Below are positions 2,022 through 16,946 of a stretch of DNA of 36,299 nucleotides, in pieces. The notes under the pieces are model-generated. The model saw only the letters and a list, made by a program, of their open reading frames with translations. It was not told where the DNA came from and made no database searches. The position numbers and the translations under genes are program-made. Source of the stretch: an uncultured Bacteroidia bacterium (lineage in GTDB: Bacteria > Bacteroidota > Bacteroidia > J057 > CALLMJ01); the NCBI GenBank assembly GCA_938005475.1, contig CALLNY010000077.1, positions 1-36,299 on the forward strand, given 5' to 3'. Within the stretch, counting starts at the first letter, position 1; the number at the start of each line of letters is the position of its first letter.

Positions 2022-2750
2022 ATGGTTCAATTAAGCGTCAATATCAATAAAGTTGCATTATTGAGAAATTCGAGGGGAGAAAACACCCCAAATCTAATAG
2101 AATTTGCCAAAAAATGTTTAGACTTTGGAGCCGATGGCATCACCGTTCATCCAAGACCTGACGAAAGACATATCCGTTATGCTGATGTTTATGAATTAAA
2201 AGATATACTAAACAAATACCAAAAAGAACTTAACGTAGAAGGATATCCCTCTGATCAATTTCTCAAAATGATAGAAGAAGTAAGACCTGCCCAGTGTACA
2301 TTAGTACCCGATGCTCCTAATGCCTTAACTTCTAATTCAGGCTGGGATACCAGAAGATATTTTGCTTTCCTGAAAGAAGTAGTAGCACATTTAAAAAATC
2401 TAAAAGTTCGTGTCTCTATATTCCTAAATTGCGATTTAGAATTACTACGCTATGCCCATAAGTTAGAAACGAATAGAGTTGAACTTTACACAGGTCCTTA
2501 TGCGAAATTTTATCCTTATAATCCTTATTTAGCAGTCCAACCTTACATAGAAACAGCAAGACTAGCCGAGATTTTAGGATTAAAAATCAATGCAGGACAC
2601 GATTTGAACCATAACAATTTAAATTATTTCTTACAACAAGTACCCACGGTCCAAGAAGTTTCTATTGGACATGCCATTATTTCAGATTGTCTATATTGGG
2701 GTTTAGAAGAAACTCTAAAAAAATATATCAACTGTCTAAAAACCTCTTAA
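2022..2750 (+). CDS. pdxJ: Pyridoxine 5'-phosphate synthase PdxJ
   Basis: PdxJ condenses 1-deoxy-D-xylulose 5-phosphate with 3-amino-2-oxopropyl phosphate to make pyridoxine 5'-phosphate, the ring-closing step of DXP-dependent vitamin B6 synthesis in the cytoplasm. The 242-residue length is normal for this TIM-barrel family. Family signatures are present: 'LSVNINKVALLRNSRG' at the N-terminus, 'GITVHPRPDERHI' with His43, 'NVEGYPS' with Glu73 and 'NAGHDLN' with His193, equivalent to the catalytic His/Glu/His of the E. coli enzyme. The ending 'GHAIISDCLYWGLEETL' is also typical. It is the first gene of a plus-strand run: the phosphatase gene starts 11 bp after its stop. A -7 element and two palindromes lie just upstream. 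Confidence 0.97.
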   Translation: MVQLSVNINKVALLRNSRGENTPNLIEFAKKCLDFGADGITVHPRPDERHIRYADVYELKDILNKYQKELNVEGYPSDQFLKMIEEVRPAQCTLVPDAPNALTSNSGWDTRRYFAFLKEVVAHLKNLKVRVSIFLNCDLELLRYAHKLETNRVELYTGPYAKFYPYNPYLAVQPYIETARLAEILGLKINAGHDLNHNNLNYFLQQVPTVQEVSIGHAIISDCLYWGLEETLKKYINCLKTS

Positions 2751-2755
2751 TTTTG
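2748..2755 (+). promoter_or_regulatory. -7-like element overlapping the pdxJ stop codon
   Basis: TAATTTTG overlaps the TAA stop of pdxJ and lies 6 nt before the phosphatase ATG at 2762. If used, transcription would start at or next to the ATG (a leaderless mRNA). No good -33 TTTG is visible, so this is tentative. Confidence 0.35.
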
Positions 2756-2761
2756 CAAATC

Positions 2762-5700
2762 ATGAAAAAAAGTGGAGTTACGAACCGTTTTAGTACATTA
2801 TTCTATTTAATACTTTTTTTGGTAGTCATACCACTACTCACGAGCATTTATTTAGTTTGGCAAGAAAAAACAAAACACCTTCCTAAATTAGAACAAATCA
2901 ACACCATTGAGGTTAAATTAGAATCCTTAAAAAAAATAAGTTTACAAAAAATTGCTTTGTCCTTTGCGAGTGATACGCTTCCCTTGAAAGAAACCGTAAA
3001 AGAAGATGAATTATTCCAAAATAGTAATGAACTCAAACGAATAGCAAAAGATTTCTTGGATGTAGACTCTTTAAGCCAATTGGTAAAACTAAGCAATCAA
3101 TTTGAAAACACGTTAAGAACTTATCTAGGTGTAAGGGAAAATTATGCAAGCCAATCCCCAAAAGAAAAAAATGAAACTACCCTAAATTCTTTATTCAGCT
3201 ATGGAACAGAATTAGCAAGATTACATACCAATATCCAAGAAACGTTAACCAATTTAGTAAATGATTTAAACAAAAAAAGAGACCTCATCAATACTCAATT
3301 TGCTTATAATCAGTTTCTTTTATTTCTAATTTTAGGTGCAACCTTAATTTTATTTTTAATCACTCTCCTAATTACTATCATTTATTTCAATCGCTCACTC
3401 CAAAAACCTATCCAACAAATCAGTCAAATTTTACTAAAATTCAAATCAGGAAACATTCAAAATAATGAACTCGTAATTGAAAATAGTCCTATTCCCTTAC
3501 TATCTGAAACTTTACAACATCAAAAAATAAAAAATGATGCAATCCAAGAATTCGTTACTTGTATTTTAGAAGAAAAAAAAACTACTCTGTCCTCCGAACA
3601 AATTCCAAATGAACTATTCCAATCTTTAAAGCAAATTCAAGATCAATTAAAATCCTATAAATATAGCAGTTCCCAATGTTTAAAAGAATTAGAAGAAACG
3701 AAAAATTCTTTTGCAATTAAAGAAGAAGAACAAAGAAGGCAAATCATCAAATTGAATCACCGTTTACAAGGAATAGATGCGTTTATAGCTATTGCGGAAT
3801 CGGATTTACAAGGTAAAATTACTTTTTGCAATCAAACTTTCGCAAACTATTTTGAATATCAACCCTCCGAGCTTATTCATCAACCCTTCAAAATACTCAA
3901 TTCTGGTTATCATGATAAGGAGTTTTTCAAAGATTTATGGGATACTATCACCAAAGGAAAAACTTGGAAAGGATATATACGAAACAAAACTAAAAACGGA
4001 CAGACGCTCTGGCTGGCCGTTGCTATCCACCCCATTCAAGATGCACTAGGTAAAATTACCAAATTCATTTACTCTGCTTTAAATATTCAAGCTCTCAAAC
4101 TAAATGATGAAGAAATTCAAAACGCACTAAATCAAACTGTAAAAGAATTAAATAGCCTAAAAAGCCTTTACTCCAAAGCCATTCAAGAAAGAGACGAAAT
4201 CAAAAAATTATATGATGAACAAAAACAATTGGAATATCGCTTAATTCAACAACAAGCCGCCATTCAGGAATTTACAAAAAATCCAGCTATCAAAGAAGGA
4301 AAAATTAGCGATGCTATTAGGCTCATCACAGAATCTACCTGCTACACTTTAAACCACGAACGTGTTGGATTTTGGTTATTCAATGATGAAGAACATACCC
4401 TTACTTGCGTAAATTTGTTTGATAGACAAACGCTACAACACTTCGATAATCTCGAAATTCAAGAAAAATACGCCAAAGAGTATTTTGAACTATTAAAACA
4501 AAATGAAACCTTAGCAATCGATAATATTTTAACACACGAAGCTACCAAACGTTTGTCCGATTATTATTTTATACCACACAATATTTCCTCTTTAATTTCC
4601 GCACCAGTACGTTTAAGTGGGAACGTGGTAGGATGCTTTTCTGTGGAGCATGTAGGAAAACCTATTCAATGGACACCCGACCAAATCGCTTTTATCAATG
4701 CCGTTGCGGATATCTTATCCGTTTCCCTTGAACAAGGAAACCGTAAAGTTATGGAAGAAGAATTACGAACAGCCCTTGAAGAATCCCAAGCCCTCGAAGA
4801 AGAACTGCGACAAAATGCAGAAGAAATTGAAGCTACAAATGAAGAACTACGAAGAGCTCAAATTGAACTAAAAGGACAAATTGAAGCCTTGAACTCCGCC
4901 GCTATCGTCTCTGAAACTAATATCCATGGACTTATTACCTATGTAAATTCTGAATTCCTACAAATTTATAATTACCATAAAGATGAAATCTTCGGTAAAA
5001 ATCATAAAATACTAAAATCCGGTTGGCACCCCCCCGAGTTCTACAAAGAAATGTGGGATACTATCCTACGTGGAAAAGTATGGAAAGGTGAAATCAAAAA
5101 TAAATCCAAAGACGGCTGGTATTACTGGATCAACTTAACTATAACCCCTGTTATAGGCTCTGACGGTAAACCCTACAAATTTATTGCAGTAGGTTTTAAT
5201 ATATCCTCTCAAAAACTTCAAGAAGAACAATTAAAAACCGCTCTTGAAGTTGCTTTACAACAAGAAGTAATGCTTCGTGAAAATACCGAAGAATTAATTG
5301 CCGCTAATGAAGAAATGCGTAGAACTCAAGTAGAACTCATCGGACAAATCTCCGCTCTTAATAACTCCTCCATGGTCTTCGAAACCGATATGGAAGGAAA
5401 TATCACTTACCTAAACACCGAATTACTCAAAACTTTACACTATGATAAAGACGAACTAATGGGAAAAAGATATACCATCTTAAAATCCCCTAATCAAAAC
5501 GACAAAATTTACCAAGAACAATGGAAAAGTGTCCTGAACGGTAAAATCTGGAAAGGTGAAATAGAACTCGCAACCAAAGAAAAAAAATCCGTCTGGGTTT
5601 GGATGACCAACACTCCTGTCCTCGACTCTGACGGCGAACCTATTAAATCTATCAACGTATTATTTGATATAACCCCACAAAAAGAACAAGAATTCCGTTT

Positions 5701-7060
5701 AAAAAGACAACAAGCCGCATTACTCGAAATTACCTCCCATCCCTCCGTTAAAGAAGCAAAAATCGACGAAGCTTTTGCTATTATCGCTCAAATTGGGCTT
5801 GTAACCCTGGAAGTGGACAGAGCTTCTATCTGGCTTTTCGAAGAAAGTGATATGCGTATCCGTTGTATGACCACCGCACAAGCCGATGGTGTTATCCATA
5901 AATATCAAAAAGGTACTGTTCTCCAAAGAGATTTTTATCCTAACTATTTCAAAACCCTTGAAAAAGACCGTGTCATTGCCGCTAATGATGCCGTTAATGA
6001 CACCCGAACCAAAGAACTGGCTATTCCTCTACTCGTCCCTAGTGGTATTCATTCTGTACTCGACTCCGCTGTTCGTCAAGGTGTTAAAACAGTGGGTATC
6101 CTCTCTTTTGAAAGTAGAACCCGACCCCGTAATTGGACACTCGACGAACAAAATTTCGCCGCTTCTCTCGCTGATACCATCGCCCTCGTCCTTGAACAAC
6201 ATGAACGCCTTAAAGCCGATAAACTTAAAGAAGCCTACGCCCAACTAGAACTTATTAACCAAGAAGTAATTAAACAAAAAGAAGAAATTGAAGAAAACGC
6301 TAAAAGTCTAACCGAAAGTATTAAATACGCTAAAAGAATTCAACAAAATATCCTACCTTCAAAAGAACTACTCAATAGTCTTTTTAAAAACTACTTTGTA
6401 ATTTTTAGACCACGCGATATTGTTGGGGGAGATTTTTACTGGGTTGCAGGACATGAATCAAAAAGAGTTGTGGTCGTTGCGGATGGTACAGGGCACGGCG
6501 TTCCCGGCGCCTTCCTAACTATGATCGGCAATATCCTTCTTAACCAAATCGTAAACGAAAAAAAAATCCTTAAACCTGCTGACATTCTCTACTGGCTACA
6601 TATCGGTGTAAGACAAACCCTAAAACAAGATGCCGAAGAATCTACCTCTCGCGATGGTATGGACGTTACCCTCATCACATTGGATATTGAAACCTACGAA
6701 TGCGAATATGCAGGTGCCAATCTACCGCTTAACTATTACCAAGACTGGGAAGTCCATGAAATTAAGCCCGATAAACAATCCATCGGTGGCGAGCAAATGG
6801 AAGAAGAACGTACTTTCACCAACCATAAAATTCAACTCAAACCCGGCGATGCAGTCTATCTTTATACCGACGGCTTCGTAGACCAAATGGGAGGACCCGA
6901 CGAAAAAAGATTCTCTACAAGACGTTTCCGTGACCTCATCCTTAGAACTCAAACTGAATCTATGGCTACCCAAAGAGCTTTGCTCAACATGGAATGGAAA
7001 GAATGGAAAGGTGACCTTGAACAATTAGATGACGTTACCGTCTTCGGTTTAAGAATTTAA
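2762..7060 (+). CDS. Membrane multi-sensor PAS/GAF SpoIIE-type serine phosphatase
   Basis: A 1432-residue RsbU/SpoIIE-type PP2C phosphatase with several sensor domains. Two membrane helices (about 10-33 and 185-210) enclose an extracytoplasmic sensor region. Next come a coiled coil, PAS1 (about 340-446), GAF1 (507-658), PAS2 (710-818), PAS3 (866-973), GAF2 (988-1148), a linker with 'SIKYAKRIQQNILP', and the phosphatase (about 1190-1432). Metal-binding motifs are intact: 'GGDFYW', 'ADGTGHGVPGAFLTM' and 'YTDGFVDQMGG'. Such enzymes dephosphorylate anti-sigma-factor antagonists or similar STAS proteins; no partner gene is in the window. The coiled-coil-plus-PAS unit is duplicated. I use ATG 2762: the in-frame upstream extension to 2687 runs inside pdxJ and would add 25 non-membrane residues before the helix. 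polA starts 3 bp after the stop. Confidence 0.93.
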   Translation: MKKSGVTNRFSTLFYLILFLVVIPLLTSIYLVWQEKTKHLPKLEQINTIEVKLESLKKISLQKIALSFASDTLPLKETVKEDELFQNSNELKRIAKDFLDVDSLSQLVKLSNQFENTLRTYLGVRENYASQSPKEKNETTLNSLFSYGTELARLHTNIQETLTNLVNDLNKKRDLINTQFAYNQFLLFLILGATLILFLITLLITIIYFNRSLQKPIQQISQILLKFKSGNIQNNELVIENSPIPLLSETLQHQKIKNDAIQEFVTCILEEKKTTLSSEQIPNELFQSLKQIQDQLKSYKYSSSQCLKELEETKNSFAIKEEEQRRQIIKLNHRLQGIDAFIAIAESDLQGKITFCNQTFANYFEYQPSELIHQPFKILNSGYHDKEFFKDLWDTITKGKTWKGYIRNKTKNGQTLWLAVAIHPIQDALGKITKFIYSALNIQALKLNDEEIQNALNQTVKELNSLKSLYSKAIQERDEIKKLYDEQKQLEYRLIQQQAAIQEFTKNPAIKEGKISDAIRLITESTCYTLNHERVGFWLFNDEEHTLTCVNLFDRQTLQHFDNLEIQEKYAKEYFELLKQNETLAIDNILTHEATKRLSDYYFIPHNISSLISAPVRLSGNVVGCFSVEHVGKPIQWTPDQIAFINAVADILSVSLEQGNRKVMEEELRTALEESQALEEELRQNAEEIEATNEELRRAQIELKGQIEALNSAAIVSETNIHGLITYVNSEFLQIYNYHKDEIFGKNHKILKSGWHPPEFYKEMWDTILRGKVWKGEIKNKSKDGWYYWINLTITPVIGSDGKPYKFIAVGFNISSQKLQEEQLKTALEVALQQEVMLRENTEELIAANEEMRRTQVELIGQISALNNSSMVFETDMEGNITYLNTELLKTLHYDKDELMGKRYTILKSPNQNDKIYQEQWKSVLNGKIWKGEIELATKEKKSVWVWMTNTPVLDSDGEPIKSINVLFDITPQKEQEFRLKRQQAALLEITSHPSVKEAKIDEAFAIIAQIGLVTLEVDRASIWLFEESDMRIRCMTTAQADGVIHKYQKGTVLQRDFYPNYFKTLEKDRVIAANDAVNDTRTKELAIPLLVPSGIHSVLDSAVRQGVKTVGILSFESRTRPRNWTLDEQNFAASLADTIALVLEQHERLKADKLKEAYAQLELINQEVIKQKEEIEENAKSLTESIKYAKRIQQNILPSKELLNSLFKNYFVIFRPRDIVGGDFYWVAGHESKRVVVVADGTGHGVPGAFLTMIGNILLNQIVNEKKILKPADILYWLHIGVRQTLKQDAEESTSRDGMDVTLITLDIETYECEYAGANLPLNYYQDWEVHEIKPDKQSIGGEQMEEERTFTNHKIQLKPGDAVYLYTDGFVDQMGGPDEKRFSTRRFRDLILRTQTESMATQRALLNMEWKEWKGDLEQLDDVTVFGLRI

Positions 7061-7063
7061 TTT

Positions 7064-9811
7064 ATGAAATTATTCCTTATTGATGCCCTTGCAATCATCT
7101 ATCGCTCCCATTTCGCTTTCATTAAAAATCCTCGTATCACCAGCTACGGTAAAAATACCTCCGCAACATTCGGTTTTGTTAGAACTTTGTATGAGATTAT
7201 TAACAAAGAAAAACCTACCCACCTCGGCGTCGCTTTTGACCCCCCAGGACCCACCATAAGACATCAAGAATTTGAACACTATAAAGCTCATAGACAAGAA
7301 ACCCCCGAAGATATTATTCAAGCTATCCCCGATATTAAGAGAATTTTAAATGCCTGGCACATCCCTATCTTGGAAATTAATGGTTTTGAAGCCGATGATG
7401 TAATTGGAACACTCGCAAAAAAAGCCTCATCCCAAAATATAGACGTCTTTATAGTCACTCACGATAAAGACTACGCTCAACTTGTTGATGACCACATCTT
7501 TATGTATACCCCCCCCACCAGTAAAAAGCCTTTTGAATTACTTAACCGCAATAAAGTAAAAGAAAAATTTGGTGTCTTCCCTGAACAAATCCCCGACCTG
7601 CTCGGACTTATGGGAGACCCCTCCGATAACTACCCCGGTATACCTAAAATAGGTGAAAAAACCGCGCTAGAACTTATTCTTCAATATCATACCCTTGAAA
7701 ATGTCCTTGCTAACGCTCATAACATTCAAAAAAAATCTATCCAAGAAACCTTAATCCAAAACGCCCACCTCGGTATAGCCTCTAAAAAACTCGCTACCAT
7801 CTATACTGATATCAATATTACGTTAAATATGCAAAACCTTAAATTAGATCCACCCGATAAAAAAAAACTACTTCAAATTTTTACCGAACTCGAATTTAAA
7901 ACACTGTCTGAAACAATTCTAGGAGAAACCATTCATTATAACTCGACTCTACAAAAAAAAAATTTATTTTCTAATGAAAATTCAACAAATATCCTCCCAA
8001 ACCTCCAAACTATCCAAAATACACCCCACCAGTATTTTATTTTACATTCCCAATCTGAAATTTTGAACTTAGTTGATAAATTATGCTCCCAAAAAGCTGT
8101 TTGCTTCGATTCTGAAACCGACCAACTCGAAGTAATCGATTCCCAGTTGATTGGATTGAGCTTGTGTTTTCAAGCTCATGAAGCATATTACATACCTATC
8201 CCACAACACTACACCGAAGCAATTAATATCTTGAATTTATTTAAACCTTTCTTTGAAAATCCTAATATCCTAAAAATCGGACAAAACCTCAAATATGATT
8301 TGCTAGCCCTAAAAAATTATAACATCCACGTCGCTCCACCTTTTTTTGATACCATGATAGCCCACTACGTCTTGGATACAGAAAGTAAGCATAATATGGA
8401 TTTTCTAGCCGAAAAGTATTTAAATTATACGCCTATTTCCATTGAAACCTTAATCGGCAAAAAAGGAAAAAACCAAAAAAGTATGAAAGATATTGCCCTC
8501 TCCAAAGTAGCAGAATACTCCGCAGAAGACGCCGATATAACCTTTCAACTATACAAAAAATTTGAACCGCTTATTACACAAAATCAGGTAGACAGAATTT
8601 TTTATGAAATTGAACAACCACTTATGCCAGTTCTAGCAGAAATGGAGTTTAATGGTATTAAAATAGATTGTAATATACTAAAAGAAATTTCTATTGAATT
8701 GCAAAAAGAACTACAAAACCTTGAAAAACAAATTTATGAACTAGCAGGTAGTACCTTTAATATACAATCTCCCAAACAATTGTCAGAAGTTTTATTTGAT
8801 AAACTTCAACTAAAAAAAGGAAAAAAAACCGCAACAGGGCAGTTATCCACTAGCGAAGAAACTTTATTAGAACTTGCTAATGAACATCAAATCGTACGTA
8901 AAATTTTAGATTACCGTCAGATAGCAAAATTAAAGTCTACGTATGTAGATGCTTTACCTGAGTTAATTAACCCTAAAACGCAAAGATTACATACTACCTT
9001 TGCACAGACTGTTGCAGTTACTGGACGTTTAAGCTCTGTCAATCCTAATCTACAAAATATACCCATAAGAACAGACAAAGGTAAAGAAATAAGAAAAGCC
9101 TTTATTGCTTCCGAAAATCATGTTTTACTTTCTTGTGATTATTCTCAAATTGAGTTAAGAATTATGGCTGCATTAAGCCAAGATGAGAATTTAATAGAGG
9201 CTTTTGCTAAAAAAGAAGATATCCATGCTGCTACAGCTTCTAGAATTTTTAATATTCCGATTGAAGAAGTAAACAGTGATATGCGCCGTAAAGCTAAAAC
9301 TGCTAATTTTGGAATTATTTACGGAATCTCTGCTTACGGACTTGCCCAACGCCTTAACATAAACCGTACCGAAGCCAAAAAATTGATTGATACCTACTTT
9401 GAAAAATACCCCAACGTAAAAACTTACATGGATAACTGCATCAAAACTGCACGTGAAAAAGGCTACGTAGAAACTTTAATGGGAAGAAAAAGATACCTCA
9501 AAGATATTCACTCTGCAAATTTTACGGTCAGAAGTTTTGCAGAACGTACTGCTATCAATACCCCCATTCAAGGTACTGCCGCTGACATCATTAAATTAGC
9601 TATGATAAAAATCCATGACCTCATTCAAAAAAATCATTGGAAAACCCGTATGATTTTACAAGTCCATGATGAACTTCTCTTTGAAGTACCTGAAAATGAA
9701 ATATTCATTGTTCAAAGCCCCATTCAACATGCTATGGAAAATGCCTTCACATTGACCGTACCATTAGAAGTGAATTTAGGAACGGGAAATAATTGGTTGG
9801 AAGCTCATTAA
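7064..9811 (+). CDS. polA: DNA polymerase I, with 5' nuclease and proofreading domains
   Basis: Full-length family A polymerase of 915 residues, used in Okazaki-fragment maturation and gap-filling repair. Residues 1 to about 290 are the 5' nuclease: 'LFLIDALAIIYRSHFAF', 'VTHDKDYAQLV' and the H3TH segment 'DNYPGIPKIGEKTA'. The 3'-5' exonuclease keeps its acidic residues in 'FDSETD' (Asp349, Glu351), 'NLKYD' and 'YSAEDAD', so proofreading should be active, unlike in many Pol I homologues. Polymerase motif A is 'CDYSQIELR' (about 692), motif B 'RRKAKTANFGIIYG' (Phe in the O helix) and motif C 'LQVHDELLFE'. It is spaced 3 bp from the phosphatase gene and 6 bp from the CPBP gene, implying co-transcription. 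Codon use in the first third looks richer in C-ending codons than in the rest. Confidence 0.98.
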   Translation: MKLFLIDALAIIYRSHFAFIKNPRITSYGKNTSATFGFVRTLYEIINKEKPTHLGVAFDPPGPTIRHQEFEHYKAHRQETPEDIIQAIPDIKRILNAWHIPILEINGFEADDVIGTLAKKASSQNIDVFIVTHDKDYAQLVDDHIFMYTPPTSKKPFELLNRNKVKEKFGVFPEQIPDLLGLMGDPSDNYPGIPKIGEKTALELILQYHTLENVLANAHNIQKKSIQETLIQNAHLGIASKKLATIYTDINITLNMQNLKLDPPDKKKLLQIFTELEFKTLSETILGETIHYNSTLQKKNLFSNENSTNILPNLQTIQNTPHQYFILHSQSEILNLVDKLCSQKAVCFDSETDQLEVIDSQLIGLSLCFQAHEAYYIPIPQHYTEAINILNLFKPFFENPNILKIGQNLKYDLLALKNYNIHVAPPFFDTMIAHYVLDTESKHNMDFLAEKYLNYTPISIETLIGKKGKNQKSMKDIALSKVAEYSAEDADITFQLYKKFEPLITQNQVDRIFYEIEQPLMPVLAEMEFNGIKIDCNILKEISIELQKELQNLEKQIYELAGSTFNIQSPKQLSEVLFDKLQLKKGKKTATGQLSTSEETLLELANEHQIVRKILDYRQIAKLKSTYVDALPELINPKTQRLHTTFAQTVAVTGRLSSVNPNLQNIPIRTDKGKEIRKAFIASENHVLLSCDYSQIELRIMAALSQDENLIEAFAKKEDIHAATASRIFNIPIEEVNSDMRRKAKTANFGIIYGISAYGLAQRLNINRTEAKKLIDTYFEKYPNVKTYMDNCIKTAREKGYVETLMGRKRYLKDIHSANFTVRSFAERTAINTPIQGTAADIIKLAMIKIHDLIQKNHWKTRMILQVHDELLFEVPENEIFIVQSPIQHAMENAFTLTVPLEVNLGTGNNWLEAH

Positions 9812-9817
9812 ATTTCT

Positions 9818-10762
9818 ATGAAAAAAACAGTTTGGTTATTTTCTATTACGCTTTTTCTTTTGAGTTTTGCTTTAGCCTTTGTTTTTAATTTGTTTGGTGG
9901 AAAGTGGAATAGCGCTAGTGCCGCCATCATTATTATTATCAACTCTATTATTCCTTTGGTTGTTGTCTTGATACTCCACAAATTTATTTTATATACCCCT
10001 ATCAGTAATTCTATCGGAAAAATTAAAATATGGAATTTATGGAATTTAGTGGTAATCTTTGGACCCATAGTTTATATTTTATTAAGCATCGTGCTACTTT
10101 CGTTATTTCCGGGAATTGAAATTGATCCTAATAAACCTTTATTTTTAGAACAATTTAAAATCTTCCTTTCTCCATCAGTTTATGATAATATCTATATTCA
10201 AGCATTTAAAACCGATATACCTATTCTATGGATAAATCTAATCATTGCAATTTTCTGGGGGCTTACCTTCAATTTTGTTATAGGCTTTTGTGAAGAAATT
10301 GCATGGAGAGGTCTATTGTTTTATCAACTACATAATTTCTCCTTCCTCAAACAATCTTTAATACAAGGAACAATATGGGCTATATGGTACGCTCCTTTTG
10401 TCATTTTTACTTCAATAATCAATCCTTTTTACGCAATCATTATCAACACTATTTTCTTTTTGTTGCTCTCTCCAATTTACCTTTTTGTGCGTTATGCCTC
10501 CAATTCCATTATTTCAGTCGCAATTTTACATGGAATAATTTCCAGCTTTTCCTATTTCGCTGATATAGTTACCAGTGACCAACAAGCACAGTGGCTTAGT
10601 AGTTATATCCAAATCAATTTTTACCTCCTTATTTTATCTAATTTTATTTTATTTATCTATATTTACGCTGTAAATCCTGTTTTTAAAGTAAAATTTACAG
10701 AAAACCAAAGTAACTTTATTCGTAAAACTACTTCTATTAAACCTCTTAAAAATGAAGATTAA
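9818..10762 (+). CDS. CPBP-family (CAAX/Abi) intramembrane protein
   Basis: A 314-residue polytopic membrane protein with at least seven hydrophobic segments. The CPBP (Rce1/Abi) signature 'EEIAWRGLLFYQL' places Glu159, Glu160 and Arg164 on a membrane helix, followed by 'GTIWAIWYAPFVIF' and a later 'ILHGIISS' with His238. Family members are intramembrane glutamate proteases or CAAX-processing enzymes; some serve in bacteriocin immunity. The second motif normally carries a His (FxxxH or WxxWH); here that position appears to be Tyr191, so activity cannot be assumed. The gene follows polA by 6 bp and probably shares its transcript. Substrate unknown. Family assignment is confident; biochemical role is not. 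Confidence 0.85.
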   Translation: MKKTVWLFSITLFLLSFALAFVFNLFGGKWNSASAAIIIIINSIIPLVVVLILHKFILYTPISNSIGKIKIWNLWNLVVIFGPIVYILLSIVLLSLFPGIEIDPNKPLFLEQFKIFLSPSVYDNIYIQAFKTDIPILWINLIIAIFWGLTFNFVIGFCEEIAWRGLLFYQLHNFSFLKQSLIQGTIWAIWYAPFVIFTSIINPFYAIIINTIFFLLLSPIYLFVRYASNSIISVAILHGIISSFSYFADIVTSDQQAQWLSSYIQINFYLLILSNFILFIYIYAVNPVFKVKFTENQSNFIRKTTSIKPLKNED

Positions 10763-10848
10763 ACGCAATCTATTTTTTCAGTTACAGTTATAGTTGTACA
10801 AGTCTTATTTTAGTATGATTATACATTTTGCAATATAAAAATTTTTAT

Positions 10849-10879
10849 TTTGAATATTATTAATAAATCAGTATCTTTG
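10849..10879 (+). promoter_or_regulatory. Bacteroidota promoter of the MbnP-like operon
   Basis: TTTG (10849-10852) is followed after 19 bp by TATCTTTG (10872-10879), an exact match to TTTG-N19-TAnnTTTG. The start codon is at 10892, only 12 nt after the -7 box, so the leader would be about 6 nt. An upstream in-frame ATG at 10850 lies within the promoter and is unlikely to be used. Confidence 0.7.
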
Positions 10880-10891
10880 CAGAAAAATATT

Positions 10892-11596
10892 ATGAAATAC
10901 CTTTGGATAATTTGCTTTTTCTTTATTATAAGTTGTAACAAAGAAAAGAATAATTATAAAGAAGATGAGGTGGAGGTAAATTTATCTTTTGCTATGAAAT
11001 ATGGGAATAAAGAATTAAAAATTAATGATTTCCATGTTACAGAAACCCAGGATACCTTTAGAACTACTATGCTTAAGTTTTATATTTCAAATGTAGTACT
11101 TATTAGGAAAGATGGCTCGGAGTACAAAGAACCAGATAGTTATCATTTATTTTCATTAGAAAGTCCTACAAAAAATTCAGCAAGAATAAAAGGAGTACCA
11201 AATGGAGAATATACCCAAATACGTTTTGCATTAGGGATTGATAGCGTAAGAAATCATAGTGGTGCTCAGGTCGGAGATTTAGATCCTGCCAACGGCATGT
11301 TCTGGACCTGGAGTGAAGGTTACTTGTTTCTTCGTTTTGAGGGAGTTATCAAAAAAACGCCTTCCAAAGGCTTAATTGTTCATATCGGAGAAGACCGCTA
11401 CTATACCCCTTACGAAATCACCCTGTCTCAACCTTTATTAGTTCAAAGCAACCCCAAAAATTATAACATACCCCTAAAATTCGATCTCTACCATCTTTTT
11501 AACCATCCTTACAAAGTAGATATAGATAGTTTGGCTCACGGTTATCCCGGCAAAGTAGTTGATAATTTACCTTTCTTAATAAATTATAATTTATGA
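10892..11596 (+). CDS. MbnP-like lipoprotein
   Basis: A 234-residue predicted lipoprotein. 'MKYLWIICFFFIISC' gives a short hydrophobic stretch ending in a lipobox Cys. The body matches the MbnP-like family: 'LKFYISNVVLI', 'DSYHLFSLES', 'GVPNGEYTQIRFALGIDS', and the hallmark 'GMFWTWSEGYLFLRFEG'. In methanotrophs MbnP is a periplasmic copper protein whose Trp is oxidised to kynurenine by the di-haem enzyme MbnH; homologues are widespread in Bacteroidota. No MbnH-like peroxidase lies next to this gene; its partners are a microprotein and a secreted protein of unknown family, linked by ATGA overlaps. I chose ATG 10892 because it places the lipobox correctly and follows the promoter. Copper or metal handling is inferred from family only. 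Confidence 0.85.
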   Translation: MKYLWIICFFFIISCNKEKNNYKEDEVEVNLSFAMKYGNKELKINDFHVTETQDTFRTTMLKFYISNVVLIRKDGSEYKEPDSYHLFSLESPTKNSARIKGVPNGEYTQIRFALGIDSVRNHSGAQVGDLDPANGMFWTWSEGYLFLRFEGVIKKTPSKGLIVHIGEDRYYTPYEITLSQPLLVQSNPKNYNIPLKFDLYHLFNHPYKVDIDSLAHGYPGKVVDNLPFLINYNL

Positions 11597-11721
11597 AAGA
11601 ATGGATAGAACGCCTCAAAAGATGGAATAAAAACTATTTTAGTACGGACTTTTGGATGTATTTAATCATGACTTCTATTATCGCAGTATCATTTTTGATT
11701 TGGTTAATTTTTTTTAAATGA
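11593..11721 (+). CDS. 42-residue single-span membrane microprotein
   Basis: ATG 11593 overlaps the TGA stop of the MbnP-like gene (ATGA), and its own TGA (11719-11721) overlaps the ATG of the next gene, again as ATGA. The 42-residue product has a basic, Trp-rich amphipathic start (MKEWIERLKRWNKNYF) and then one hydrophobic helix of about 20 residues ending in 'WLIFFK', so it should be an inner-membrane protein with a cytoplasmic N-terminus. No family is recognised. The double translational-coupling arrangement is the best evidence that it is a real gene, since random short ORFs rarely interlock on both sides. Confidence 0.75.
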   Translation: MKEWIERLKRWNKNYFSTDFWMYLIMTSIIAVSFLIWLIFFK

Positions 11722-12335
11722 GAGTTCTAAATTATCTCTATTTAATCTTTTTTTTTCCTTGCATAGCACTCTGTCAATTTTTTACTAATGAAGGAGAAGG
11801 AAATTGTAAAGTAGATGCCTCCTACATGAAACCTATCATAAAACGCTTCAATCCTTTTTTTATTGAGCATAATTATGATGATGATACTAAAAATGAAACC
11901 GCTAAACTCAGCGAAGGAAAAATTATAATTATTGACCAACGAGCTTGCATAAGACATCATATTGCTATTCAATATATTATCTCTCCTGATGAACTTAAAG
12001 TTAATTCCTCTAATTACAAGATACTTATTAAAGAATGCTTCAGTTTATTGAATAAATTATTTTTTCAAGATTTTGATTACCTCAAATTCAAAACAGAATT
12101 TGAAACTATTTTCTACAAAAAAATAGAAGAAAATGGTATAGGAAGAGCTTTTAGCTTTCCCATTGATGATAGAACATTCATTGCTCAATTAGATTTTGGC
12201 GATTGGGGAAGTAAATTACACCTAGAAATTGTTAAATATCTATATACTCAAAACATTAACCTACCTGGCGTTCCTGAATATACTGATGATGGCTACTTTC
12301 AACCAATTAAATTATCCCAACCTAAATCAAAATAA
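11718..12335 (+). CDS. Secreted protein of unknown function
   Basis: A 205-residue protein with an N-terminal signal peptide (hydrophobic 'YLYLIFFFPCIALCQ', likely cleaved near residue 20). The mature part is mixed alpha/beta with Cys residues near positions 30 and 77 and a segment 'IPIDDRTFIAQLDFGDWG'-like in character (as read: 'FPIDDRTFIAQLDFGDWG'). I do not recognise a family. It starts in an ATGA overlap with the microprotein, so it is the third gene of the MbnP-like operon and probably acts in the same envelope process. It converges with the DEAD-box gene, whose stop lies 8 bp away; no strong terminator hairpin is seen between them. Confidence 0.8.
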   Translation: MRVLNYLYLIFFFPCIALCQFFTNEGEGNCKVDASYMKPIIKRFNPFFIEHNYDDDTKNETAKLSEGKIIIIDQRACIRHHIAIQYIISPDELKVNSSNYKILIKECFSLLNKLFFQDFDYLKFKTEFETIFYKKIEENGIGRAFSFPIDDRTFIAQLDFGDWGSKLHLEIVKYLYTQNINLPGVPEYTDDGYFQPIKLSQPKSK

Positions 12336-12343
12336 AAGCTTTT

Positions 12344-14104
12344 TTATTTCTTTTTTCGTTTAAAATTTTCAAATACAATACTATCCTTTGTCCCCTCTGC
12401 TTTAGAGACTACTCTACTAATTTTTCTGTCCGTTTGATGTTCTTTAGATTTTGTTTTCTTTCTTTCCACAGAAAAAATCGTCTCATTTTTATTTCTTTTG
12501 TTTCTTGGACCACTCTTACTATCTTTAGAAGAAGCTTTTGCAACTTCAATTTCTATTGTTCGTTTCCCTAATTTTATATTTTGTAATCTATCAAAAACGG
12601 TAGTTTTATCTCTTTCCGAAATTTCAAAGAAAGAATAAGAATCATTCATTCTAACGTTGTTGATAAACTTTTTAGGTATATCTGTCATACGGTGTAACCA
12701 CTGAACAAACTCTAATTTATCAAATCCATCTTTTCTACCAATATTAATGAACAAACGAATTTGTTTCGTATTGTTCAAGATGTTGAGATCAACTGCATCT
12801 TTATAATATTCAGTAAAACGTTGGAATTCAAGGGTACAGAAACGAAGTAAAATTTCTTCACGAGAAAGGTCTTTAAGTTGTTCTAAAATAGTGTTTTGGT
12901 ATTTATGGATAATATCATTATCAATTTGTATATTTTTGAATTCTTCGAAGAAATGAAGTACTCTTTTTTCTATCACATCTTGTGCAGTAGGTATAGGAAG
13001 AATTTGAATTTTAGTTTTAATCCGTTGTTCAACTTGCTTTAAACGTTGTTTTTGGGAATTTGTAACAATGCTAATGGAGACGCCTGTTTTTCCGGCTCTT
13101 GCAGTACGCCCTGAACGGTGAATATAGGATTCTATATCATCAGGAACACCATAATGAATGACATGTGTAATATTATCGATATCAATTCCTCTTGCGGCAA
13201 CATCTGTAGCAACTAATATTTGTAGGCTTTTATCACGAAAACGGGTCATAACTTTATCCCGAATGGCTTGGCTTAAATCGCCGTGCAGCGCATCAGCGTT
13301 ATAACCATCTTTTATGAGTTGTTCTGCAACTTCTTGGGCTTCGCTTTTAGTTCTTGTAAAAATAATTCCGTAAATATCAGGATAATAATCTACGATTCGT
13401 TTTAATGCTTCATAACGAAAATCTTTGTCAATAATATATGCTTCATTACGAATGTTCTGCGCTAAGGTGTTTTTTGGGCCTATGGAAACCTCCTGGGGAG
13501 CAGTCATATACTTTTTGACTAACTGACGAATTTCGTCGGGCATGGTAGCAGAGAAAAGCCATATATATTTTTGTTTGTTGGTCGTGAAGGCAAGAATTTC
13601 ATCTACGGTTTCTCGGAAACCCATGTTTAACATCTCATCAGCTTCATCTAAAATGAGATACTGAATATTCTGAAAATTAGTATTTTTTCTGTTAAGATGG
13701 TCTATAATTCTTCCAGGGGTAGCCACAATAATTTGTGGACCTCTATTCAGTTCTTTGATTTGTTTCTCCATACTTGCACCGCCATAAATACATGCAATAT
13801 TGGCTTGTGATATATTTTTAGCAAACTTTTCTAGTTCTCCTGCTATCTGCACACAAAGCTCTCTGGTTGGACTTAAAATTAAAGCCTGTGGTACATTCAA
13901 TTGAAAATCAATTTTATGTAATAACGGTAACCCATAGGCTGCGGTTTTTCCTGTTCCAGTTTGTGCTAATCCGATGAAATCACAATCATTAGTTAGCAAT
14001 ATAGGTAACGATTTTTGTTGTATTTCTGTGGGATGTACATATCCCATTGCTTGAATGGCATTAAGGATTTCTGGATTTAATCCTAGTTCTGTGAATGTTG
14101 TCAA
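12344..14104 (-). CDS. deaD: DEAD-box RNA helicase with DbpA-like RNA-binding domain (DeaD/CsdA type)
   Basis: An ATP-dependent RNA helicase of 586 residues, expected to act in ribosome assembly, RNA decay or cold adaptation. The Q motif is 'FTELGLNPEILNAIQAMG', motif I 'AQTGTGKT', Ia 'PTRELCVQ', II 'LDEADEML', III 'SATMP', V 'ATDVAARGIDI' and VI 'YIHRSGRTARAG', together covering residues 1 to about 380. The region about 460-535 ('LFINIGRKDGFDKLEFVQWL') resembles the DbpA/CsdA C-terminal RNA-binding domain. A Lys/Arg-rich tail follows. This layout fits DeaD/CsdA better than tail-only RhlE. It is probably monocistronic, with its own promoter at 14135-14166. Confidence 0.93.
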   Translation of the reverse strand: MTTFTELGLNPEILNAIQAMGYVHPTEIQQKSLPILLTNDCDFIGLAQTGTGKTAAYGLPLLHKIDFQLNVPQALILSPTRELCVQIAGELEKFAKNISQANIACIYGGASMEKQIKELNRGPQIIVATPGRIIDHLNRKNTNFQNIQYLILDEADEMLNMGFRETVDEILAFTTNKQKYIWLFSATMPDEIRQLVKKYMTAPQEVSIGPKNTLAQNIRNEAYIIDKDFRYEALKRIVDYYPDIYGIIFTRTKSEAQEVAEQLIKDGYNADALHGDLSQAIRDKVMTRFRDKSLQILVATDVAARGIDIDNITHVIHYGVPDDIESYIHRSGRTARAGKTGVSISIVTNSQKQRLKQVEQRIKTKIQILPIPTAQDVIEKRVLHFFEEFKNIQIDNDIIHKYQNTILEQLKDLSREEILLRFCTLEFQRFTEYYKDAVDLNILNNTKQIRLFINIGRKDGFDKLEFVQWLHRMTDIPKKFINNVRMNDSYSFFEISERDKTTVFDRLQNIKLGKRTIEIEVAKASSKDSKSGPRNKRNKNETIFSVERKKTKSKEHQTDRKISRVVSKAEGTKDSIVFENFKRKKK

Positions 14105-14173: not shown

Positions 14174-14803
14174 TTAAATATTTAGAATATTATTAGCTTT
14201 GTAAAATATGGTGGTACAAGTTTTCATGGGAACGATAGGAGCAATACCCCAAAAACTAATTTCTTTGAAACCTAATGATTTGAAAAATTCAAGAATTTCT
14301 GGATAAGCATCTGAGTTATCTAAAATAATTACCCCGTTCGTTTTTAATTTTTTTACGGCATTTTGGGAGCATTCTAAACGTTTTCTTCCGTCTATCAAAA
14401 TTAAGTCATATAAATGAGAAGTTGTTAATATTGATTGTTCATATTCAGTGGAATGCAGATTTTTAAGATATAAATGGACATTAGGGGGAATTTTATTTCT
14501 GATGTGTTCATACCATTCTTTCTCATGTTCAACAGAATCAATATGCTGAACATAATTGGAGAACCACAAAGTAGAATTTCCACAACCATACTCAAAAAAA
14601 AAGAAAGATTTATTTAGACGTGGTCGTATGAAATCTAAAAAAGGATAGTTCAACCAAGGAATTGGATTTCCCTGTTTGTCTATTGGTTTTTTATAGATAA
14701 AAGATTTATACCACCCATTTTCTCTTAATTCACTTCTAACAGCTAGTTGTATCCAGGGACCTAATCCTAATGAATTTAGCACGGACCAAATAATTTTTTT
14801 CAT
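14174..14803 (-). CDS. Class I SAM-dependent methyltransferase-like protein
   Basis: A 209-residue protein with a Rossmann-type methyltransferase start 'FFFFEYGCGNSTLWFS' (motif I E/D-x-G-x-G), then 'HIDSVEHEKEWYEHI' carrying the acidic residue that would bind the SAM ribose, and 'YDLILIDGRKRLECSQNAV' plus 'GVIILDNSDAYPEI' as later strands. This pattern is shared with methyltransferases linked to glycan or FkbM-type modification, but the acceptor is unknown. I start at ATG 14803: the frame is open up to 14998, but that part lies inside the 3' end of the acylase gene and reads as low-quality coding sequence. It follows the acylase by about 50 bp and could share its transcript. Confidence 0.75.
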   Translation of the reverse strand: MKKIIWSVLNSLGLGPWIQLAVRSELRENGWYKSFIYKKPIDKQGNPIPWLNYPFLDFIRPRLNKSFFFFEYGCGNSTLWFSNYVQHIDSVEHEKEWYEHIRNKIPPNVHLYLKNLHSTEYEQSILTTSHLYDLILIDGRKRLECSQNAVKKLKTNGVIILDNSDAYPEILEFFKSLGFKEISFWGIAPIVPMKTCTTIFYKANNILNI

Positions 14804-14852
14804 GAGTAAAGGATGCACAAAATTAAAGCTTTTTAATGGTAATCTATATAAT

Positions 14853-16946
14853 CTATGGGAGAGGATTAGGAGAATAAATTTTGGAGGCGTATTTTTTTTG
14901 ATTTTCAAAGCCTTGTAAAATGAGGCGAGTTTTTTGCTGAATATAAGGTAACATTTGGTCGGTATAGTGGGGGGAATGAGGGTTTGCAGAGCTTCCATAA
15001 GCGTTGATAGTGTAGGCTTTGTAGGTTCCCTCCTTTGGATTAAAATCTACCAGCATAATTAAACTTTCCCCGGAAACATTTTTAAGGCGTCCATCTTTTT
15101 CCATTTTAGGTAAGCCAGCGGCTAATACTTCAGGACCTCCTTGGAAAGGCAAATCTACTTTTCCCCTACGATGACGAAATAAATCCCCCCATTTTACTTC
15201 AACAGATTTAAAATATTTTTTTAAGTGATTAACAGCAAAACGAACTCCTTCAATGAAATCTTTTTCAGTAAATTCCATAAAGCCACTCATGATTTCATAA
15301 CTTCCATAGCCTTTCTTATCAATCATAAAAGCAAGTGTAAGACCCCAGAGTGAAGCAGTTGAATTTTCACGTGACATACAAAAATCAAAGTTTTGCATTT
15401 GGGAGATCACATTTTGTAAATCTGGATAATTTTTAGGATTTATGTCCCAAAAATTTTTGAGTGTTTTAATCAAAGTGCTATTCGTTGAATAACAAATATC
15501 ATACTTTATGCGAATAAAATCGTTCCAAGAGATTTTATGGAGTGGTTGTATGAGTTCAAAAAGTCTTTGGGCACGGTTGTTAATATAACATTCTAGCCCT
15601 AGAGTTTCATCGAAATCGGCTTGATTGAGATTTTGAGATTCACAGGAAGCAAAACAAGCGGTGTTGTTCGTATTAAAAAGGTAACCGCAATCAGGATTAA
15701 GGTAGTGAGGGAGTTTCTCTAATGGGTAATAATGTTTCCAAACCAGATGGGAAGAGTTACCTGGGACAGCCTGGTTCCAATTGTAACCTTTTTCACGAAT
15801 AGGGATTAACCCTAAGTGATGATAATAAATATTTTCGAAGCGGTCTGCATAAATTACATTGAAAAGAGCGGCGGCGTGCATTTTTAAGGCTTGTTGAAAC
15901 TCATGGAGGTTTTGGGCTTTGTTCATTCTATACCATTGTTCAGCAACCCGAATTTCAGTAGCGGCAGGAACTTTGATAGCATAAAAATTTCCATCTTTTC
16001 CTTGAATTACTGGTCCTATTTTACTCCACCAAGCTTTCTTTTTAACTTGAATTTTAATTCCACTGATTTTTAGTTCTAATGGAATGGTGTGTGGCTCTAA
16101 ATTTACCCATTGCCCGTCCCATTCATATTGATTTTTATTTTGGGGGTTCATTTTAAGCATGAAGTGGTCACAAATATCTGGTAAATTAAACGTATGAGCC
16201 CAAGCTAAATTGGGAGTATAACCCAAAAAAATCGTAGTACCACCAGGAAATAAGCCCCCATGAATATTCCAACCCTCTTCACTGTGTAATTCTGCTTCAT
16301 ACCAAGCAAAACGCCCCTCCAAAGGTTGATGAGAGTTGATAGCCAAAAAAACATGTCCATTATCCGTTTTATTAGAGTTTATTGCAATAGCATTAGAACC
16401 TAAAGTCATGCGAAAACGAAAACCTCTTTTATAATCTTGAATAGTTCCATCTAATAATCTCTGTACAATAAAAGGAGCTTGTGAGAACAAAGTCATAATT
16501 GCAACATAACCAGAAAGCACGTTTTGTGGGGTTATAGGAAAAGATTTTTTGACCAATACTTTATCGGGATATTTTTTTGCATAAGCATTGATGCCTTCCG
16601 TGTAACCTTGTAACACTTTTTTGAAATCTGGACTTAATCCATTTTCATAATTCGCTTCTACATATTCACGTATTTTAAAAAGTTTAACAATAAAATCATA
16701 GCCTGCACCTTCTTTTCCTTTATAAAGTCCGAGCATAGCTTTGCCTGTTAAAAGATTTTCTTGGATTGAAATAAAATCATCTTCGGCATTTGCCCATGCT
16801 AAACCATAAGCTACCTCAGCGTCCGTTTTTGCGTAGATATATGGTACTCCAAGACTATCTCGAAGAATGGTTATATTCTTCGGATTGATTTGCGAATTTA
16901 CTGATAGGGATAAAAGTAATAAACTCAATAAAGCAAATAAGTTCAT
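14853..16946 (-). CDS. Penicillin-acylase-family Ntn hydrolase
   Basis: A 697-residue secreted acylase precursor. Residues 1-19 form a signal peptide ('LLSLSVNSQ'). The alpha chain starts at 'ITILRDSLGVPYIYA' and 'YGLAWANAEDDFISIQ'. The autocatalytic cleavage site is 'TLG-SNAIAINSNKT': Ser184 would become the N-terminal nucleophile of the beta chain after linker removal. The beta chain contains 'PGGTTIFLGYTPNLAWAHT' (oxyanion and substrate pocket) and a late 'GPEVLAAGLPK' and 'YTINAYGSSANPHSPHY'. Family members hydrolyse amide bonds of beta-lactams, cyclic lipopeptides (aculeacin) or acyl-homoserine lactones; substrate cannot be told from sequence. No T9SS sorting domain is visible, so it is probably periplasmic. 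Confidence 0.92.
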   Translation of the reverse strand: MNLFALLSLLLLSLSVNSQINPKNITILRDSLGVPYIYAKTDAEVAYGLAWANAEDDFISIQENLLTGKAMLGLYKGKEGAGYDFIVKLFKIREYVEANYENGLSPDFKKVLQGYTEGINAYAKKYPDKVLVKKSFPITPQNVLSGYVAIMTLFSQAPFIVQRLLDGTIQDYKRGFRFRMTLGSNAIAINSNKTDNGHVFLAINSHQPLEGRFAWYEAELHSEEGWNIHGGLFPGGTTIFLGYTPNLAWAHTFNLPDICDHFMLKMNPQNKNQYEWDGQWVNLEPHTIPLELKISGIKIQVKKKAWWSKIGPVIQGKDGNFYAIKVPAATEIRVAEQWYRMNKAQNLHEFQQALKMHAAALFNVIYADRFENIYYHHLGLIPIREKGYNWNQAVPGNSSHLVWKHYYPLEKLPHYLNPDCGYLFNTNNTACFASCESQNLNQADFDETLGLECYINNRAQRLFELIQPLHKISWNDFIRIKYDICYSTNSTLIKTLKNFWDINPKNYPDLQNVISQMQNFDFCMSRENSTASLWGLTLAFMIDKKGYGSYEIMSGFMEFTEKDFIEGVRFAVNHLKKYFKSVEVKWGDLFRHRRGKVDLPFQGGPEVLAAGLPKMEKDGRLKNVSGESLIMLVDFNPKEGTYKAYTINAYGSSANPHSPHYTDQMLPYIQQKTRLILQGFENQKKYASKIYSPNPLP

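Follow-up and report, generated by a model that had tools for sequence, protein, structure and literature searches.

Does a gene for an MbnP-like lipoprotein that lacks its usual genomic partners belong to a dedicated envelope system? The window analyzed here is a 36,299-nucleotide stretch of an uncultured Bacteroidia genome (contig CALLNY010000077.1, C77 of genome G000), in which such a gene is followed by a gene for a 42-residue microprotein and one for a 205-residue secreted protein (Table 1). A first-pass annotation had interpreted this trio as an undescribed and possibly metal-related envelope system. Our analysis upheld its description of the parts, namely an MbnP-like lipoprotein, a single-span microprotein, and a signal-peptide protein without a curated family in one coupled operon, but not the dedicated system built upon them. 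Instead, we consider it quite probable that the trio is an operon with coupled translation that one lineage put together from three envelope genes of independent distribution, and not a conserved dedicated system.

The operon and its MbnP-family lipoprotein

Table 1. Genes and promoter-like element of the operon, with positions in the window.
Feature	Position	Strand	Description
Promoter-like element TTTG-N19-TATCTTTG	10849..10879	+	Bacteroidota-type; consensus match only, no mapped start site
MbnP-family lipoprotein gene	10892..11596	+	234 aa; start ATG 10892; PF20243
Microprotein gene	11593..11721	+	42 residues, single span; Bacteroidia-wide uncurated family
Exported-protein gene	11718..12335	+	205 residues; order-restricted single-copy family

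The three genes are joined by two ATGA overlaps, exactly as the first-pass annotation had stated. The TGA stop codon of the MbnP gene (11594-11596) overlaps the ATG of the microprotein gene (11593-11595), and the TGA of the microprotein gene (11719-11721) overlaps the ATG of the 205-residue protein gene (11718-11720). Through stop-start re-initiation at these overlaps, translation of the three genes may be coupled. An alternative TTG start listed for the first gene, at 10850, falls inside the promoter element, and the ATG was taken as the start. The Bacteroidota promoter that had been claimed can be read in the sequence as TTTG at 10849-10852, a 19-nt spacer, and TATCTTTG at 10872-10879. Because TTTG-N17-20-TANNTTTG matches seven times on the two strands of the window, compared with a mean of 1.9 and a maximum of 5 in 50 first-order Markov sequences, one such match is weak evidence alone. 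The sister species retains the -7 element TATATTTG but not the exact -33 element. A search of the region 9500-12600 against Rfam found nothing.

The assignment of the first gene to an MbnP-like lipoprotein was borne out by its lipobox (IISC) and by its match to the Pfam MbnP family PF20243 (E 5.5e-46; 157.3 bits against a curated cut-off of 27). Its score against the NCBIfam equivalog model TIGR04052 (MbnP_like_WxW) was below the 140-bit cut-off (58.3 bits, E 7.2e-16), and the gene was therefore filed under PF20243 only. The GMxWxW motif is kept as GMFWTW, with M136, W138, and W140 invariant in all 20 aligned MbnPs, and H164 is intact. The PDB entry 7l6g, titled metallo-mystery pair protein, matched with an E-value of 0.8, which is not significant alone, over the same motif. 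In MbnP, copper is bound through a kynurenine derived from tryptophan. We take the window protein to be a surface or periplasmic lipoprotein, and it retains the motif found in MbnPs that bind copper; any modification of it would have to come from a di-haem enzyme whose gene lies elsewhere.

MbnP and its partner MbnH form a pair that is conserved far beyond methanobactin producers, had no clear function at the time of that report, and can be found near TonB receptors (PMC3621798). While the window copy resembles the MbnPs of such pairs in its family match, its GMxWxW motif, and a histidine, it differs in its sub-threshold TIGR04052 score and in its neighbors, which are the microprotein and 205-residue protein genes with neither MbnH nor a TonB receptor adjoining. 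The second MbnP of the same genome (G000:C43:3490-5383; L080), in contrast, has an adjacent di-haem peroxidase, with a CDICGC-containing exported protein encoded upstream. In several families (L080, L084, L094, L095), exported proteins with a CDxCGC motif and a length of about 300-350 aa are repeatedly encoded next to MbnP/MbnH pairs. MbnPs were found in 47 of 60 genomes of relatives, where the gene after them most often encodes a di-haem peroxidase some 350 aa long, and a CCP_MauG match was listed nearby for 54 of the 88 MbnP matches. Among the 34 apparent orphans, 20 loci were read; eight proved to have an MbnH absent from the listing, and the remainder mostly looked like real orphans. On this evidence from 20 of the 34 loci, the idea that an MbnP without an adjacent MbnH is exceptional was rejected.

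Two other features of the window were recorded. A gene at 2687-7060 (+) encodes a sensor of 1457 aa with multiple PAS/GAF domains and, at its C-terminus, a SpoIIE phosphatase domain. On the reverse strand, a listed open reading frame with a weak methyltransferase-24 match (14174-14998) and a penicillin amidase open reading frame (14853-16946) overlap by 146 nt, and the true start is probably an internal ATG.

Conservation of the trio and of the exported protein

We evaluated the conservation of the trio in the genus and then in the order. The genus comparison covers two species, which are the sole sampled members of their family. The other species (G001, an uncultured Bacteroidia MAG and the same genome as L053) has the same trio, with gene order and both ATGA overlaps unchanged, and in a single-sequence scan of the genome contigs this sister MAG was the only match. 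The flanks differ: in the window the operon follows an Rce1-like gene and is followed by a helicase-like one, and in G001 other genes take these places. Between the two species, dN/dS was 0.145 for MbnP, 0.18 for the microprotein, and 0.145 for the 205-residue protein. All three genes are under purifying selection, and the operon is genuine and maintained in this genus.

In the remaining 20 genomes of the order, the gene for the 205-residue protein was not found with the other two; the loci that were read have other neighbors, with the microprotein and MbnP genes located elsewhere. The single 7.5-Mb contig of G012 illustrates this dispersal: the microprotein gene lies at 0.21 Mb, MbnP genes at 0.52 and 1.82 Mb, and the 205-residue protein gene at 3.87 Mb, all more than 0.3 Mb apart. 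In the genomes compared, the trio occurs only in the two species of the genus, and the lack of conserved neighbors seen outside the genus is what the first-pass annotation had itself named as refuting an envelope system. Such a system would combine a copper-binding MbnP, the microprotein as an inner-membrane anchor or regulator, and the 205-residue protein as a secreted partner. We regard it as unlikely, even though both species have kept the operon and its overlaps despite changed flanks, constraint on the three genes is similar, the MbnP retains GMxWxW, and the conserved cysteine and histidine residues of the 205-residue protein could bind metal. Against these points, linkage of the genes was seen in no other genome of the order, although every one of them carries the 205-residue protein gene and MbnPs are frequent there, and relatives of the microprotein adjoin many unrelated genes. 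Because only two species were compared, and the trio stayed intact while its flanks changed, functional linkage inside this lineage is possible.

All 22 genomes of the order carry the gene for the 205-residue protein at one locus each; in G020 it shows up as two partial matches, at the ends of contigs. None of 394 sampled genomes of other Bacteroidota has it, and no homolog was found in the plasmid collection. The protein matched nothing in Pfam, NCBIfam, or the PDB, and a PDB profile search with 20 members of the family found nothing. It had been described as a signal-peptide protein that could not be placed in any family, and these searches agree and point to no unrelated known family. For the protein alone, the structure prediction that had been proposed gave a pLDDT of 37 (AlphaFold2 with two sequences, the protein and one homolog), too poor for a fold search. 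The alignment identified C30, P46, E60, Q74, C77, R79, H81, and F147 as invariant and a CxRHH motif as conserved. The window protein has the features by which membership was judged, namely single copy, a signal peptide (judged by eye), and C30, C77, R79, and H81. We take it to be a soluble, exported protein specific to the order, in which the two invariant cysteines probably form a disulfide.

Elsewhere in the order, the gene that precedes it is thiD-like in several families (f4, f5, f6, f8), encodes a glycosyltransferase (PF00535) in a number of f3 genomes, and is epimerase-like in two genomes. These neighbors do not point to one function. Here and for the microprotein loci, the names of neighboring genes were read by eye from the sequence unless a Pfam identifier is given. 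The thiD-like gene is directly upstream in five genomes (L055, L056, L057, L061, L071) and about 2-3 kb away in G001.

A widespread Bacteroidia microprotein

A plain search with the window microprotein identified two relatives, the copy in the sister species and a weak match from another order (G026, E 2.4e-4). The latter (L079 6007-8715, G026:C65) lies directly 3' of genes for a TonB-dependent receptor and a small CarboxypepD_reg-like secreted protein. A profile of three sequences found more short open reading frames across the class, with E-values down to 6e-9, and an 18-member profile matched in 92 of 395 genomes at E <= 0.01. The 58-member profile matched in 100 of 390 Bacteroidia genomes, and 97 of these, from 25 families, had E-values of 1e-5 or less; the E-values show a gap between 3e-5 and 7e-4. 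Iterated profiles inflate the scores of their own members by construction, and the decisive evidence is the independent finds, i.e., members absent from the profile that found them: G512 and G489 (6e-9, three sequences), G504 (6e-12, 18 sequences), and G469 (2e-10, 58 sequences). Of the 32,159 open reading frames of the examined loci, 117 matched below 1e-5, many of them profile members or repeated loci, whereas the same set reversed gave no match below 0.1. The microprotein is nearly always present as one copy per positive genome, as it is in the window genome. The roughly 290 genomes without a match (about 75%) may reflect real loss or insensitivity of the profile.

Members of this family have 32-43 residues (about 37), a basic N-terminal segment, a YFxDxWQYL motif, and one span ending at the C-terminus; the average net charge is +2.4 before the conserved Asp and about +0.2 after it. 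The open reading frames read after the three-sequence search were consistent in having 36-44 residues, the basic N-terminus, YFPADLWAF or a similar string, and the terminal span. The window microprotein shares this pattern, with NYFSTDFWMYL as its motif and an E-value of 2.0e-14 against the 58-member profile, of which it is itself a member. The start codon is ATG in 57 of the 58 members. For most of the closer pairs, pS was about 0.5-0.9, with synonymous sites near saturation, and pN about 0.04-0.25 (e.g., 0.64 and 0.042 for L251/L253, and 0.73 and 0.10 for L227/L242). The earlier identification of a single-span microprotein is supported by this purifying selection, its single hydrophobic stretch, and the homologous open reading frames in other families. 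An open reading frame this short, set exactly between two overlaps, could be spurious or a mere coupling device between two larger genes. We consider this highly improbable in view of the selection, the homologs in other contexts, and the empty reversed controls.

We refer to the family as uncurated in the sense that neither Pfam nor NCBIfam contains it and that, at the sequence level, the PDB does not either. Eighteen members were searched against Pfam and NCBIfam, including the small-protein models, and none had a significant match; one match to DUF5989 (E 0.039) was judged to be chance. A literature search for the motif strings DIWQYL, PADLWAF, DFWQYL, DVWQYL, and NYFPAD found nothing.

The gene contexts of the microprotein are varied: read by eye, they include lgt with an inositol-monophosphatase-like gene, and PaaC/PaaD-like, PorP/SprF-like, FtsX-like permease, and ABC-F-like genes. 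Neighbors differ between lineages and are often common within genera, as expected of an old gene in slowly rearranging genomes. In 16 of the 58 loci the gene is coupled to the one upstream, with a start no more than 30 nt before or 5 nt beyond the end of that gene, and the upstream genes are mostly unrelated to one another, so coupling alone implies little. TAnnTTTG occurs within 60 nt upstream in another count of 16 of 58 loci, some by chance. The microprotein is not MbnP-specific, and a role specific to MbnP is disfavored because it occurs independently of the operon context. It could still have been co-opted in this genus as a membrane partner of the 205-residue protein or of MbnP, besides or instead of a general role, being the only copy in its genome and in exact overlap with both genes. 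Since coupling elsewhere involves such unrelated partners, we think this recruitment doubtful, slightly more so than a dedicated system.

CydX (PMC4325964), AcrZ, and Prli42 are single-span bacterial microproteins. They resemble the window microprotein in having 30-50 residues, one span, and a short N-terminal segment. The window family differs in that it matches no curated small-protein model and has no single recurring partner operon. There was no CydX match among the 18 members searched, and neither clustering nor inspection by eye found a cydAB-like cluster among the neighbors of 57 microprotein loci.

What is established for the microprotein is an open reading frame under selection, a single hydrophobic stretch, a charge bias, single copy, and context independence. 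These features suggest a core-like protein of the inner membrane that many Bacteroidia encode, usually in one copy, and that is expressed from whichever transcription unit contains its gene. From the charge distribution, the basic N-terminal segment would be N-in, followed by one span to the C-terminus. It would most likely serve a conjectural, widespread complex of the inner membrane as a small subunit with an accessory or regulatory role. We give roughly even chances to the full proposal that an uncurated, ancestrally widespread Bacteroidia microprotein is a constitutive part of a conserved machine in the inner membrane, as its small subunit or regulator, and is embedded in an MbnP operon in this genus.

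The family of the 205-residue protein, with no known fold, is present in single copy and so makes a clean marker for its order. Genes as short as that of the microprotein are often missed by automatic annotation. A one-copy membrane microprotein in at least 25 families that is absent from Pfam and NCBIfam would indicate an unrecognized component of a Bacteroidia membrane complex, and its role is directly testable in a cultured strain.
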